From Candidatus Kuenenia stuttgartensis (GTDB lineage: Bacteria; Planctomycetota; Planctomycetia; Planctomycetales; Planctomycetaceae), in NCBI GenBank assembly GCA_945861465.1, contig CAMAVB010000058.1, positions 1 through 33,870 of the forward strand: 33,870 nucleotides of DNA. Direction: 5' to 3'. Positions 4,726-33,870 of this stretch are shown here, in pieces. A program made the position numbers and the translations under genes. Positions within the stretch are counted from its first letter, which is position 1. Each line of letters begins with the position of its first letter. The notes beneath the pieces are model-generated. The model was not told where the DNA came from. It saw only the letters and a program-made list of their open reading frames with translations, and did not search any database.

Positions 4726-4849
4726 AGGCGAGCGGCAGGATAGAACTTACCCTCCGCAATTTGTACGACGGACTTCCAGTCCGTCGAGTAGCACCATGCG
4801 ACGGACTGGAAGTCCGTCGTACCGGTAAATTCATTTCTGCCGCTCGCCT
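4726..4849. repeat. MITE-like nested inverted repeat, 124 bp
   Basis: Terminal 13-bp inverted repeats AGGCGAGCGGCAG (4726-4738) and CTGCCGCTCGCCT (4837-4849), with weaker complementarity extending inward. Nested inside is a perfect 24-bp palindrome pair carrying GACGGACTTCCAGTCCGTC (4763-4786 and 4799-4822). It has no coding capacity and looks like a non-autonomous element carrying, or invaded by, a second palindrome. Confidence 0.75.
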
Positions 4850-8172: not shown

Positions 8173-8251
8173 GTAGGCCGGACCAAGCGCAGCGCCGTTC
8201 CGGCAGGTGTCTGGCAATTGCCGGAACGGCGCTGCGCTTGGTCCGGCCTAC
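8173..8251. repeat. 79-bp palindrome, GTAGGCCGGACCAAG family (short form)
   Basis: Perfect 33-bp inverted arms at 8173-8205 and 8219-8251 with a 13-base loop. The outer 15 bases match the ends of the two 138-bp repeats at 11976-12113 and 30906-31043. Lying 25 bases after the pgk stop and before a convergent gene, it could act as a two-way terminator, although it lacks a T-run. Confidence 0.85.
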
Positions 8252-16257: not shown

Positions 16258-16340
16258 GCAGAAAAATTGATGGCAGAAAAATGAATCGCAGAATGACCTC
16301 AAGTCGTAGTCTGTATTTTTCTGTCCCTCATTTTTCTGCC
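16258..16340. repeat. Doubled-arm palindrome, GGCAGAAAAAT type (solo copy)
   Basis: Left side carries GCAGAAAAATTGAT then GGCAGAAAAATGA; right side carries the inverse TATTTTTCTGTCCC then TCATTTTTCTGCC. Two similar units per arm is the same design as the repeats flanking the GxxExxY gene (27287 and 28191, GGCAAGAAAATT type). No gene accompanies this copy. Otherwise the gene-free stretch 16079-16678 holds only a small hairpin. Confidence 0.75.
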
Positions 16341-16532
16341 AGATCTGACCTGACTACTGTAAACAGACGCCTGAAAATCTTCGCGGGGGAACAAGCGATC
16401 AACTGTGTGTCGATGGTGTGGATGACTCACAGTGTCTTGCATATTGCGCAAGATACATCTTGCTTCGGGACGCAGCCAGACTCATTCGTCACCTCACTCG
16501 CATGGATCTGCGCTTCACCGAGTTTCTGCTTT

Positions 16533-25896: not shown

Positions 25897-27237
25897 CTAA
25901 ATCAGGTCGTGAATCACTTTGCCGCCGTCAACAATCGGCACAGGTCGACCAAGAGGTCCCAGAAATGTTCGGTCCGGATCGATGCCCATCAGGACTGAAA
26001 TCGTGCGGAGCAGATCGTTGACGCCCACAGGATTTCCCGTGGGTGCCGTGGCGTGCTTGTCGGTCGCTCCGATCACTTGCCCGGGCTTCGTGCCGCCGCC
26101 GGCAAAGATGATTGTCTGCGCCATCGACCAGTGATCGCGTCCGGCCTGAGCGTTGATCCGCGGTGTGCGACCCATTTCGCCCATCATCACGACAAGTGTC
26201 TCATCCAGCAGTCCACGTTGTTCCAGGTCTGTGACCAGTGCGCTGAACGCGCGGTCGGCGTAGGGGATGAGGTCCGTTTTCAGGCTGGGAAAACAGTTGA
26301 AGTGTACGTCCCAGCCTGGTGCATCGACGCCGACAAAACGGCAGCCGCCTTCGACCAGCCGTCGCGCCAGCAAGGCACATTGCCCCAGTTGCGTGCGACC
26401 ATAGGCGTCTCGTACCGCATCCGGCTCGGCGTGAATGTTGAACGCTTTTCTGGCGTCGTCCGATGTAATCAAACTGTACGCTTTTTCATAATAGGTCGAC
26501 ATGGCCTTACCCTGAGCCTGATTGCGTTCGCGCTCCAGTTGATCAATGCCGGACAACAATTGCTTACGGAGACTGAGTCGTTTGTCCGACAGATGTCCGG
26601 GCGGGCGCAGGTCCTTGACTTCAAAGTCCGGCTGCGTGGGATCGGCTTCGATGACAAAAGGCGCATGTTCCGCACCGTAAAATCCGGGGCCGCCGGCCTG
26701 CATGGGATGCGGCAGATTGATGTACGCCGGCAGGGCACCGCGCTGGCCCAGCGTCCGTGAGACGACTGATCCGATGGACGGAAAATACTCGTTGTTGGGT
26801 ATGGGATTGTCGCCGTCGGCGAAGCTGGGCCGATGGCCGGTCATCACATAATGGTATCCCGTCGAGTGTCCGTTATCGTTGTGACTGTGACTGCGGAGGA
26901 TCGTATACTTGTCTGCCATCTGCGCGCACAACGGCAACTGATCTGTCACAAAGATGTCGGGGACATTTGTGCTGATCGTGCCGAACGGTCCCCGAATTTC
27001 CGGTGGTGCTTCCGGCTTGGGGTCCCACATATCCTGATGTGGCGGACCACCTTCCAGAAACAGGAAGATGCAGGACCTGGCTTTGGCCGCAATCGGACTT
27101 GCGGCCAGCGCCTGCAGTTCCAGCAGGCGCGGCAACGTCAAGCCGCCGATCAGACCGCACGCGCCAAGACGCAGCGCATGTCGGCGCGATGCTCCATTGC
27201 AGTTCAAATGCTGTCTGCCGAGAGATAATCGGAGCAT
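25897..27237 (-). CDS. DUF1501 secreted protein (Tat-type signal)
   Basis: 446 aa. Starts with GASRRHALRLGACGLIGGLT, a twin-arginine-type signal. DUF1501 blocks: SCIFLFLEGGPPHQDMWDPK, YTILRSHSHNDNGHSTGYHY, LLARRLVEGGCRFVGVDAPG, VVMMGEMGRTPRINAQAGRD and HWSMAQTIIFAGGGTKPGQV. GAGG precedes the ATG by 9 bases. Same strand as the cytochrome gene at 28286-30712, but separated from it by 1,048 bases that hold the oppositely oriented GxxExxY unit; in related operons these genes are adjacent. Confidence 0.93.
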   Translation of the reverse strand: MLRLSLGRQHLNCNGASRRHALRLGACGLIGGLTLPRLLELQALAASPIAAKARSCIFLFLEGGPPHQDMWDPKPEAPPEIRGPFGTISTNVPDIFVTDQLPLCAQMADKYTILRSHSHNDNGHSTGYHYVMTGHRPSFADGDNPIPNNEYFPSIGSVVSRTLGQRGALPAYINLPHPMQAGGPGFYGAEHAPFVIEADPTQPDFEVKDLRPPGHLSDKRLSLRKQLLSGIDQLERERNQAQGKAMSTYYEKAYSLITSDDARKAFNIHAEPDAVRDAYGRTQLGQCALLARRLVEGGCRFVGVDAPGWDVHFNCFPSLKTDLIPYADRAFSALVTDLEQRGLLDETLVVMMGEMGRTPRINAQAGRDHWSMAQTIIFAGGGTKPGQVIGATDKHATAPTGNPVGVNDLLRTISVLMGIDPDRTFLGPLGRPVPIVDGGKVIHDLI

Positions 27238-27286
27238 TCATCAATTCCTCATAAGCGCAACTCGACAAAGAAACATGAATTCGGGA

Positions 27287-27355
27287 GGCAAGAAAATTGA
27301 GGGTAAGAAAATTATCTGAAACAGCTTCTACCAATTTTTCCCTGTAATTTCCCTG
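27287..27355. repeat. Doubled-arm palindrome left of the GxxExxY gene
   Basis: Left arm GGCAAGAAAATTGAGGG + TAAGAAAATTATC (27287-27316) is nearly identical to the left arm of the repeat at 28191. The right arm (CAATTTTTCCCTG + TAATTTCCCTG) is diverged but keeps the two-unit design. Direct orientation relative to the other copy. Confidence 0.7.
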
Positions 27356-27393
27356 AGTAATCCCCTTCCATTGCCGTTGCAGAGGACTCGCTC

Positions 27394-28191
27394 ATGCCCA
27401 TTACATGCCTAATATCATTCAAGCCACTGAGTACCGAAGACTTCGGCAAGCTGGATTATTCAGTGATGGCCAGCGCCTTTGCAACACACAAGGAGTTCGG
27501 TCGGCTTGCCGATGAAGTAATTTACCAAAGCGATTTCGCGGCAAGACTCTCACAAGCTGAATTCAAAATCTCCCGTGAAGTTCCTGTCACCGTCTCGTTT
27601 GGGTCTTTCAGTAAAGTGTATTTCCTGGATCTGGTTGTCGATGGAAGCGCGATTTACGAACTGAAAGCCGTCGCCAGGCTTACTTCGGAACACGTTGCTC
27701 AGTTGCTCAACTACCTTTACCTCGTTGAATCGGAGCGAGGAAAATTAGTCAACTTTCGACCAGCCTCAGTTGAGACAAAATTCGTCAATGCCCCTTTGTC
27801 GCGTCAGCATCGCCAGCGCTTTGTGGTGAATGAAATCCACTGGAATGGCCCCAGCGTGTTTCACAATCTACTTATTGATTTGCTCCGTGACTGGGGTACC
27901 GGCCTTGAGTTGTTACTTTACCGCCAAGCCATTGTGAATCTGTTGGGTGGCGACGAGCGTGTAGCAGTCGTGCTTCCGATGATGAGAAGCGGAATCCCAT
28001 TAGGCAACCAGCGTTTTCTCCTATCAGATCCGGAGTCCGCATTCCGACTCACAGCGTTGTCGGGGGACTTTATTCCTTACAGAACGCACCTCGAACGCCT
28101 GCTGCGGCACAGCCCACTCTCATCGATCCATTGGATCAACATCGACCTCGAAACCGTCACCTTTACGACGATTAAAAAAGAGCGCAATTAG
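27394..28191 (+). CDS. GxxExxY-family protein, long form (PD-(D/E)xK-like)
   Basis: 265 aa; AGAGGA lies 7 bases before the ATG. N-terminal half matches GxxExxY proteins: YSVMASAFATHKEFGRLADE, then the G36..E41..Y44 signature (spacing one residue longer than the name implies), hydrophobic strand VYFLDLVVDG with D79, and YELKAV (E89-x-K91), then TSEHVAQLLNYLYL and GKLVNF. The D..ExK arrangement resembles PD-(D/E)xK nucleases. Residues ~130-265 are an extra C-terminal domain that I do not recognise. The stop codon's last base is the first base of the right-hand palindrome. Role unknown; DNA handling of the flanking repeats is a hypothesis. Confidence 0.8.
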   Translation: MPITCLISFKPLSTEDFGKLDYSVMASAFATHKEFGRLADEVIYQSDFAARLSQAEFKISREVPVTVSFGSFSKVYFLDLVVDGSAIYELKAVARLTSEHVAQLLNYLYLVESERGKLVNFRPASVETKFVNAPLSRQHRQRFVVNEIHWNGPSVFHNLLIDLLRDWGTGLELLLYRQAIVNLLGGDERVAVVLPMMRSGIPLGNQRFLLSDPESAFRLTALSGDFIPYRTHLERLLRHSPLSSIHWINIDLETVTFTTIKKERN

Positions 28192-28263
28192 GCAAGAAAA
28201 TTTGAGGTAAGAAAATTATCGGTCCAGGTCTGACTTAATTTTCTTACCCGTAATCTTCTTGCC
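28191..28263. repeat. Doubled-arm palindrome right of the GxxExxY gene
   Basis: Arms 28191-28218 (GGCAAGAAAATTTGAGG + TAAGAAAATTA) and 28236-28263 pair at 24 of 28 positions; each arm contains two AAGAAAATT-like units. The loop contains GGTCCAGGTCTGACT. Confidence 0.8.
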
Positions 28264-28285
28264 GGAAAAAAACAGAGCAGCTCAA

Positions 28286-33339: not shown

Positions 33340-33870
33340 TCACGTCTTTTTCTTTGGTCTTCCTCTCGGGCGAGTTGTGGTTTCGAGCCCAAGGCGAACG
33401 GCACTGCTTCGGGTCCAATTGTCATCACCAAACGGCAAGCCGCGTTTGACACTGCGACGAAGCGCGTTGAGTTCTGCCTCAGTCTCGACCTTGTTCACCG
33501 ATGAACGCCAGTTTCGCGGCAACTGCGGGTCATCGGGAATTGCCAGCCAGCGGCGTTCGTCAGCAGGTTGGCGGCGAGCAAAAGCGGAACACCATTGCCA
33601 GTCTTCCGCAAGCTCAACGAAATTTGCACGAACGGGATTTCGCTCCACGTACCGCATCACGGTCAGCAAGTGCCCGTCCGATTGAATCGGGAACGATTTG
33701 AAGCGCCCCTGATACAGATGCCCCGTGCCACCAGTCTTGTAGTGAGCATGCCAACGCATTGTGTGCATCACCGTGAGGCGACGGAAAAACTCACTCACCT
33801 GATCATTGGTCTCGGGCCGGACGACAAAGTGCCAGTGATTCGGCATTGCCACCATCGCATAAATCGGCAG
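33340..33870 (-). CDS. REP-associated tyrosine transposase (RAYT), 5' end outside window
   Basis: Only the last ~176 codons are in view; the reading frame (LPIYAMVAMPNHWHFVVRPE) runs open to the window edge. Y1/IS200-like transposase domain: HUH motif in PNHWHFVV and the catalytic tyrosine in MRYVERNPVRANFV, both typical of RAYTs. These single-strand transposases are associated with REP palindromes. The C-terminus ends in GRPKKKT, an AT-hook-like basic tail, and the stop lies in AAAAAGACGTGACCCCTT. Confidence 0.88.
   Translation of the reverse strand: MPIYAMVAMPNHWHFVVRPETNDQVSEFFRRLTVMHTMRWHAHYKTGGTGHLYQGRFKSFPIQSDGHLLTVMRYVERNPVRANFVELAEDWQWCSAFARRQPADERRWLAIPDDPQLPRNWRSSVNKVETEAELNALRRSVKRGLPFGDDNWTRSSAVRLGLETTTRPRGRPKKKT

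Follow-up and report, generated by a model that had tools for sequence, protein, structure and literature searches.

A GxxExxY gene bracketed by doubled-unit palindromes in a planctomycete genome: a candidate gene-plus-repeat unit comparable to REPIN-RAYT

A gene encoding a GxxExxY protein and bracketed by two copies of a palindrome is found in the window, by which we mean the whole stretch of 33,870 nt of DNA that was analysed, and our results revealed that this observation is real as well as general. In fact, the association of gene and palindromes, the insertion of both as one block of ~1 kb, the recurrence of the same anatomy with other units in relatives, and the occurrence of gene-less palindromes in several contexts have all been established. 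The best reading of the protein is that of a cognate nuclease which spreads or maintains the palindromes, and we consider it rather probable that gene and palindromes make up one functional unit similar to a REPtron, with a different enzyme. In both statements recognition, cleavage and mobilisation are inferred, as there are no data on activity, binding or movement and no exact junction is readable.

The gene, its protein and the host operon

The window is contig C58 of an 8.2-Mb genome in 474 contigs, a planctomycete judging from its gene content. The features referred to in the text are as follows.

8173-8251, no strand given: REPIN-like element, a perfect 33-nt inverted repeat with GTAG start, GTAGGCCGGACC...
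16271-16341, unstranded: second doubled-unit palindrome, of the GGCAGAAAAATG type, with no GxxExxY gene attached
25897-27237, minus strand: DUF1501 gene of the host operon, left neighbour, Pfam profile match
27262-28283, unstranded: inserted block (limits approximate) that three congeners lack at this operon junction
27287 to ~27357, plus strand: left doubled-unit palindrome, arm 27287-27314, right arm decayed
27394-28191, plus strand: long GxxExxY gene, 265 aa, MPI start
27451-27780, plus strand: N-terminal catalytic GxxExxY / PD-(D/E)xK domain, residues 20-129
27841-28188, plus strand: C-terminal domain, predicted to be a degenerate second GxxExxY domain, without the catalytic triad
28191-28263, plus strand: right doubled-unit palindrome, its first base being the last base of the stop codon
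28286-30712, minus strand: PSCyt2/PSD1 gene of the host operon, right neighbour, Pfam profile match
33340-33855, minus strand: RAYT-like open frame (Y1_Tnp), at the right edge of the window

As the initial annotation had stated, the GxxExxY gene stands opposite to its two neighbours, between the cytochrome (PSCyt2/PSD1) and DUF1501 genes, and the profile matches as well as the strands agree with this. The PD-(D/E)xK-like residues D79, E89 and K91, to which it had also pointed, are invariant in 20 aligned long relatives, just as D67, E77 and K79 are in 34 aligned short forms. The N-terminal domain is a member of GxxExxY / PDDEXK_3 over both curated cut-offs, with 76.9 bits against 22 for TIGR04256 and 71.4 bits against 35 for PF13366 (PDDEXK_3), and its key residues are G36, E41, Y44, D79, E89, K91, Q103 and N120. 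In a Pfam scan of the protein PDDEXK_3 is the sole domain found, and no Y1/HUH tyrosine transposase domain was seen. Unlike the typical GxxExxY family, the long form has a presumed degenerate C-terminal domain fused to it, an MPI start that is invariant across the 20 aligned long relatives, and the motif spacing G36-x4-E41-x2-Y44, which does not meet the literal GxxExxY spacing (G24-x2-E27-x2-Y30 in the aligned short forms). Judged by a dN/dS of 0.07-0.11 in seven pairs from five orthologue groups, all from other genomes of the family, the long genes are under purifying selection. Neither a function of GxxExxY proteins nor a link to repeats is given in those parts of PMC8934634 and PMC12085832 that were available.

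The extra C-terminal domain, for which structure prediction had been proposed, comes out as a degenerate second GxxExxY domain. In the AlphaFold model of the window protein (mean pLDDT 95; 92.7 for a short-form model), residues 154-261 are predicted to repeat the element order of the N-terminal part and of the short-form model, namely two helices, three strands, a helix and two strands, with short extra elements set aside. Comparison of the profile of the short family with the C-terminal half gave E 4.3e-4 and a score of 28.4, where 100 column shuffles gave at most 19.9; the comparison of the N half with the C half of the long form was weaker (19.3 versus 17.5 in shuffles, and P 0.049 in the first comparison). 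Moreover, the domain keeps G168 and Y176 of the motif and also N249, the catalytic residues being gone. Because of the matching element order, the profile match and the survival of these G, Y and N residues without the catalytic ones, the C-terminal domain is best read as a decayed second GxxExxY domain, which would make the long form a single-chain pseudo-dimer with one active centre.

Palindromes of the window and insertion of the block

Doubled-arm palindromes had been noticed on both sides of the gene, the right one beginning on the last base of the stop codon, and both claims hold, the base in question being the G of TAG at 28191. The palindromes are ~73 nt long and every arm consists of two copies of one ~12-nt unit, which in the right copy read GGCAAGAAAATT and GGTAAGAAAATT. 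The left and right copies have 28 of 31 nt in common at their start, the left arm of the left copy matches the right copy at 25 of 28 positions, and within the right copy 24 of 28 positions pair between the two arms. The hairpin score of the right copy is 16, compared with at most 11 in 210 dinucleotide shuffles of such flanks; the left copy was missed in the hairpin scan because its right arm has decayed.

A check of the same operon in relatives for an empty site, as the initial annotation had suggested, found three congeners with neither gene nor palindromes at the junction (G133, G118 and G122, all of the same genus). There the two operon genes are ~20-27 nt apart, and in the window 1048 nt, as read from the sequences; the identity of the flanks to the window is 85-86% in G133 and G118 and 75-77% in G122. 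Since gene and palindromes are lacking at all three junctions, the ~1-kb block is, on the evidence of these alignments, an insertion in the operon. No target duplication is readable at the window insertion, where the empty sites are 75-86% identical and the ends are uncertain by ~20 nt.

Sites of other long genes were also inspected. The site of the L069 gene in G104 has the same neighbours, with neither long gene nor visible palindrome. At the site of the L073 gene in G108 the gene is absent and what looks like another, GC-rich palindrome is in its place, so that G108 was rejected as an empty site of this gene. Besides, locus L107 (G112:C95) holds an unrelated stretch of ~1.2 kb where G105, G111 and G114 hold a long GxxExxY gene, and this stretch contains what appear to be two small open frames, along with palindrome arms of another GxxExxY type.

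Matching flank repeats in the long relatives

In a search of 170 family genomes, 23 long matches reached E <= 1.5e-33, one of them being the window. The 21 long genes analysed are the window gene and those of 20 fetched regions; L111, L113 and the fragment L112 were inspected by eye only. For each gene the left flank was compared with the right one by a local similarity score, with a threshold of at least 41. The survey of flanks that had been called for showed that matching repeats recur, as the two flanks of the same gene reach the threshold in 18 of the 21 long genes. When flanks of different long genes are paired, 12 of 406 combinations pass, most of them from types whose units are alike, and of the neighbouring ORFs from the long loci and the window none of 51 passes (ORFs of at least 250 aa, some mutually overlapping). 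The three genes below threshold are L056, with visible, short repeats, and L057 and L072, without recognisable paired palindromes.

Of the 21 long genes, 14 have a hairpin scoring at least 12 in a flank, as do 23 of 51 neighbouring ORFs, and the hairpin alone was ruled out as a mark of the gene by this count in the neighbours; the distinguishing mark of the long genes is the matching repeat pair, not the hairpin as such. Matching flanks as a general habit of ORFs in these loci were likewise ruled out by the neighbours (0/51 here, and 0/9 and 0/66 in the samples of short genes described below).

In all 19 genes with recognisable arms the start of the nearest right arm lies at -27 to +24 nt relative to the stop codon, and in L061, L065, L066 and L071 this arm encodes the C-terminus together with the stop. 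The last recognisable left arm ends 11-46 nt 5' of the start codon in 18 of the 19, the exception being the window with its decayed arm. The unit differs by the type of long gene, for example GGCAGAACGATG, GGCAAAATCATG, GGCAGAGGAATG and ATCAAACGAATG, and the type is conserved in close genes with similar surroundings from different genomes (L073/L074, L066/L071, L068/L069/L070, L059/L064 and L060/L062). Moreover, the two units of an arm vary jointly, with 10.5 of 12 positions identical within an arm and 7.7 across 13 types (permutation p = 1e-4; the arms were typed by hand and then checked against the flanks). No graded co-variation of arm and protein is detectable among these 13 divergent long types (rho 0.04, p = 0.38).

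Outside the family, the phylum yielded two further long forms, one with too little flank. The long form L077 of another family has a right-side arm of the same kind, but its left-right score is 27. Some long genes are decaying: L068 has an internal stop, L111 has eroded palindromes, and L113 is apparently out of frame in its second half.

Palindromes without the gene

BLAST of the own genome added 16 places with the window palindrome, spread over 14 other contigs, and at 12 of these 16 complete palindromes could be aligned. Six of the copies belong to one repeat of ~260 bp, and a second repeat, of 130-176 bp, contains three. The copies in the window, on C240 and on C194 and one of those on C173 have little mutual likeness beyond the palindrome, and the similarity of unrelated contexts stops near the palindrome edges. 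Taking into account that copies are nested in the two longer repeats, there are about six independent contexts among the copies examined. No compensatory pairing changes or RNA-type covariation were found in the own-genome palindromes, and an Rfam search of the palindrome gave no family (best E 0.74, with 21.5 bits versus a gathering score of 60.5). Of GxxExxY genes, the own genome contains one long and two short ones.

The ~260-bp repeat is seen at L006, L012, L013, L014, L015 and L016 with 91-98% identity and holds the palindrome off centre, and can be described as a MITE-like carrier of the window-type palindrome. The second doubled-unit palindrome of the window, at 16271-16341, resembles the arms of L073/L074. 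Furthermore, perfect inverted repeats of 24-27 nt with different sequences lie outside long open frames at 2471-2536, 2770-2849 and 4763-4822.

Across the family, a 77-nt query from the window matched 2 of 170 genomes, its own and G133, which has one window-type copy (77%) and no long gene that we could find. This search is of limited sensitivity, returning 4 own-genome contigs versus 15 by the own-genome BLAST. Gene-less copies of the L073 type are, among the matches listed (down to E 2.3e-6), in G105 and G114 only, both carriers of the L073-type gene (that of G105 being truncated by the contig start); the matches listed include none in eight genomes without the gene, and none for G110, which carries it. 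For the L069 type, the gene carriers G105, G111 and G114 have 10, 6 and 10 gene-less places among the matches listed, G112, in whose assembly no matching gene was found, has 15, and the other seven genomes have 0-2, also when the matches of a second search are counted in. Solo copies show either order of the arms. The exception of G112 could be explained by gene loss or an incomplete assembly. As far as these matches can tell, a palindrome type is for the most part restricted to genomes that carry the matching gene, with G112 and G133 as exceptions. No two long genes of the same type were found within one genome in G105, G111, G112 or G114, each with at least two typed, and therefore an IS-like multiplication within the genome is not seen.

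At locus L120 (~410-540) and at L264, past the same upstream stop codon, a GxxExxY-type palindrome is present in G112 and G114, and at the same L120 spot G111, G104 and G107 have a GTAG-type repeat instead, so the two kinds of repeats use one niche there. A clean empty site of the solo palindrome on L120 was not found, G111, G104 and G107 holding the GTAG-type repeat.

Short GxxExxY genes across phyla

The short GxxExxY genes were first taken as controls for the association of the long form; these controls are positive too, and an association peculiar to the long form is ruled out. A left-right score of at least 41 is reached by 11 of 16 short genes in the family; by 10 of 25 in a phylum sample versus 0 of 9 neighbours, or 8 of 22 without the long form L077 and two duplicates (L089 and L098, which repeat L047 and L052); and, in named genomes from a wide range of phyla, by 30 of 72 versus 0 of 66 neighbours, which become 43 of 72 versus 1 of 66 at a threshold of at least 34. 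Left out for short flanks or for having no open frame were L076, L084, L088 and L096, as well as 8 of 80 named loci. In the phylum and named sets the scores count any common stretch, and a few high ones (e.g. L085 and L099) are not word repeats; the named set leans towards one subfamily, because it is the best 80 of 578 confirmed matches to a narrow query.

The flank words of short genes vary by subfamily, for example CACGCAAAGGCGCAAAG, CACCAAGGCACCAAGACACCAAG and CGCTAATGAACGCTGA. Among 109 short genes, the flank similarity rises with protein identity (rank correlation rho 0.39, p = 0.0005), the sharing of words (score at least 34) going from 2% of pairs at 30-40% identity to 67% at 70% or more. 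For the 4542 cross-phylum pairs only, with phylum labels typed from record titles, it goes from 1.7% at 30-40% identity to 52% at 60% or more (rho 0.38, p = 0.001). The kinship of loci is not fully removed from either correlation. Since this rise is also seen between phyla, the short gene and its flank word seem to tend to travel together. To this extent the co-variation of gene and palindrome that the initial annotation had expected is supported, by the 109 short genes and by the palindrome types being largely confined to certain genomes, but it fails among the 13 long types, where no tracking is found. That relatives in many bacterial groups often have their own matching repeats suggests an undescribed class of repeat-spreading gene system.

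Comparison with known systems

The closest likeness is with REPIN-RAYT, or REPtron, systems. Here as there, a nuclease gene that is apparently mostly vertical and single per type is matched to dispersed palindromes, cognate palindromes are dispersed without the gene, palindromes differ between gene lineages, and the arms come in inverted pairs. So far as the accessible parts of these sources go, RAYTs are single-copy and vertically inherited (PMC8049555), and TnpA-REP and REP have co-evolved (PMC8266576). Unlike REPIN-RAYT, the enzyme here is a PD-(D/E)xK nuclease and not an HUH tyrosine enzyme, the arms are tandem repeats of one 12-nt unit, and there is no regular GTAG foot, an outer-edge GTAG being found in 2 of 13 own-genome copies, which are the duplicated C240 pair. 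By analogy, the system appears to work like REPIN-RAYT without being a member of it, having neither an HUH domain nor a regular GTAG foot.

A likeness to Cas4 and RecB-like nucleases exists in the fold: the best PDB match of the long model is 4ic1 (SSO0001, E 8e-4), at TM-scores that are low (0.30 and 0.39). Unlike Cas4, the protein scores 14.3 bits against the TIGR00372 cut-off of 65, and no CRISPR proteins were found among the seven window proteins scanned with Pfam. The best viral fold matches include PD-(D/E)xK nucleases of archaeal viruses.

Another likeness is with the S23 (PF05635) elements, the intervening sequences of 23S rRNA, which also have a small selfish-looking gene; in the family, S23-type genes likewise tend to be flanked by tandem words on both sides, these words being other than ours. 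The S23 protein is a four-helix protein unrelated to GxxExxY. In the S23-type genes of the family (L213-L242), the tandem words in both flanks are GA-rich heptamers, e.g. GGGGCGA and GGAGTTA; 9 of 28 loci reach at least 34 in the flank test and 3 of 28 at least 41, with 0 of 25 neighbours (2 of 30 loci were dropped for short flanks or no open frame). GxxExxY is therefore not the sole gene with such a habit, and the S23 genes are possibly a parallel class. The S23 case of Coxiella is located in 23S rRNA, according to the part of PMC4990558 that was available.

A link between GxxExxY and repeats was not found in the open-access literature searched, and a prior description elsewhere is not excluded. 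The enzyme class, the repeat architecture and their pairing are in no system that could be named, and appear to be new, the lifestyle being REPtron-like.

Proposed mechanism and alternative explanations

If gene and palindromes are one unit, the following steps may be imagined, all of which are inferred. The protein would recognise the repeated unit, and the two units of an arm would be read by the two-domain chain or, in the case of the short form, by a dimer. The single active PD-(D/E)xK centre would then nick or cut the palindrome, as a single-stranded DNA hairpin or a cruciform, and repair or replication might leave a new copy of the palindrome, occasionally together with the gene, which itself would be passed on mostly vertically. 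Counted against this reading are the palindromes without gene in G112 and G133 and the lack of arm/protein tracking among the 13 long types, and also L057 and L072 with no recognisable palindrome pair, the low score of L077, the lack of compensatory pairing changes and the similar habit of the S23-type genes. The initial annotation had gone as far as an undescribed mobile unit of gene plus palindrome; its association and insertion are established, but mobilisation by the protein is not.

The strongest rival, which we regard as unlikely and yet worth serious weighing, is a homing-like parasite, whose nuclease cuts pre-existing palindromes and whose gene is copied into the break, the palindromes being targets and no part of the unit. 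That gene-less palindromes outnumber gene-bearing ones, and that G112 has many of them with no matching gene found, would agree with such a parasite, as would the solo palindrome or GTAG-type repeat at one stop-codon-proximal spot in different genomes, which implies that such spots attract repeats. However, 168 of the 170 genomes of the family gave no match to the window palindrome type, which would leave such a parasite few targets; no palindrome stands at the three empty sites of the window; and across phyla the flank words go with the protein subfamily.

Somewhat less credible is a regulatory or toxin-antitoxin role, in which the palindromes are RNA hairpins (terminator, operator or RNA antitoxin) for a nuclease gene that acts as a toxin or in defence, with the dispersed copies arising as by-products. 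The position of the right palindrome at the stop codon is terminator-like, the left one precedes the start, hairpins are also common beside other ORFs (23/51), and there are weak Cas4-like profile matches (best E 0.0015). However, copies on both sides of the gene and throughout the genome do not fit such a role, nor do the lack of compensatory base changes in the palindromes and the lack of an Rfam family at a best E of 0.74.

An ordinary IS or MITE, with GxxExxY as the transposase of a cut-and-paste unit with terminal inverted repeats, would explain why the ~1-kb block is bounded by repeats and missing at the empty sites, but is very improbable given that no two long genes of one type occur in G105, G111, G112 and G114, that no target duplication was seen, and that the gene is rare on plasmids and the window protein has no phage match (4 plasmid records and 0 of 50,697 phage records for the window protein, 8 of 72,556 plasmid records for the short form). 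Finally, a RAYT of this genome might have moved the palindromes as its REPs, the GxxExxY gene having landed among them as a passenger. This can hardly be maintained despite 19 Y1_Tnp matches in the genome, one of them in the window, and the GTAG-type hairpin of the window, since none of the 19 Y1_Tnp loci has a window-type arm (10-13 mismatches in 28 at best versus 2-6 in ten real copies), by which RAYT-borne repeats were ruled out, GTAG is at the outer edge in only 2 of 13 copies, and the association with GxxExxY is found again and again with different palindromes, in 18 of 21 long genes.

Implications

Returning to the reading of gene and palindromes as one unit, a broader and more tentative proposal, to which we give slightly less than an even chance, is that all GxxExxY nucleases serve as the enzymes for a class of repeat spreaders which spans phyla and does not depend on HUH proteins. 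Each subfamily would recognise its own tandem word, arranged in palindromes, and would move between phyla together with that word; the planctomycete long form would be a single-chain pseudo-dimer of the same enzyme, and many of the word-type interspersed repeats in environmental bacteria would be due to this class.

If true, the finding would provide a function for a widespread protein family known only by its motif, and an owner for interspersed palindromes of environmental genomes. It would also mean that the REP/RAYT lifestyle, that is, a resident nuclease with its own palindrome population, arose more than once and on unrelated nucleases, and the natural enzyme variants paired with their recognition units could then serve for studying DNA recognition by PD-(D/E)xK proteins.
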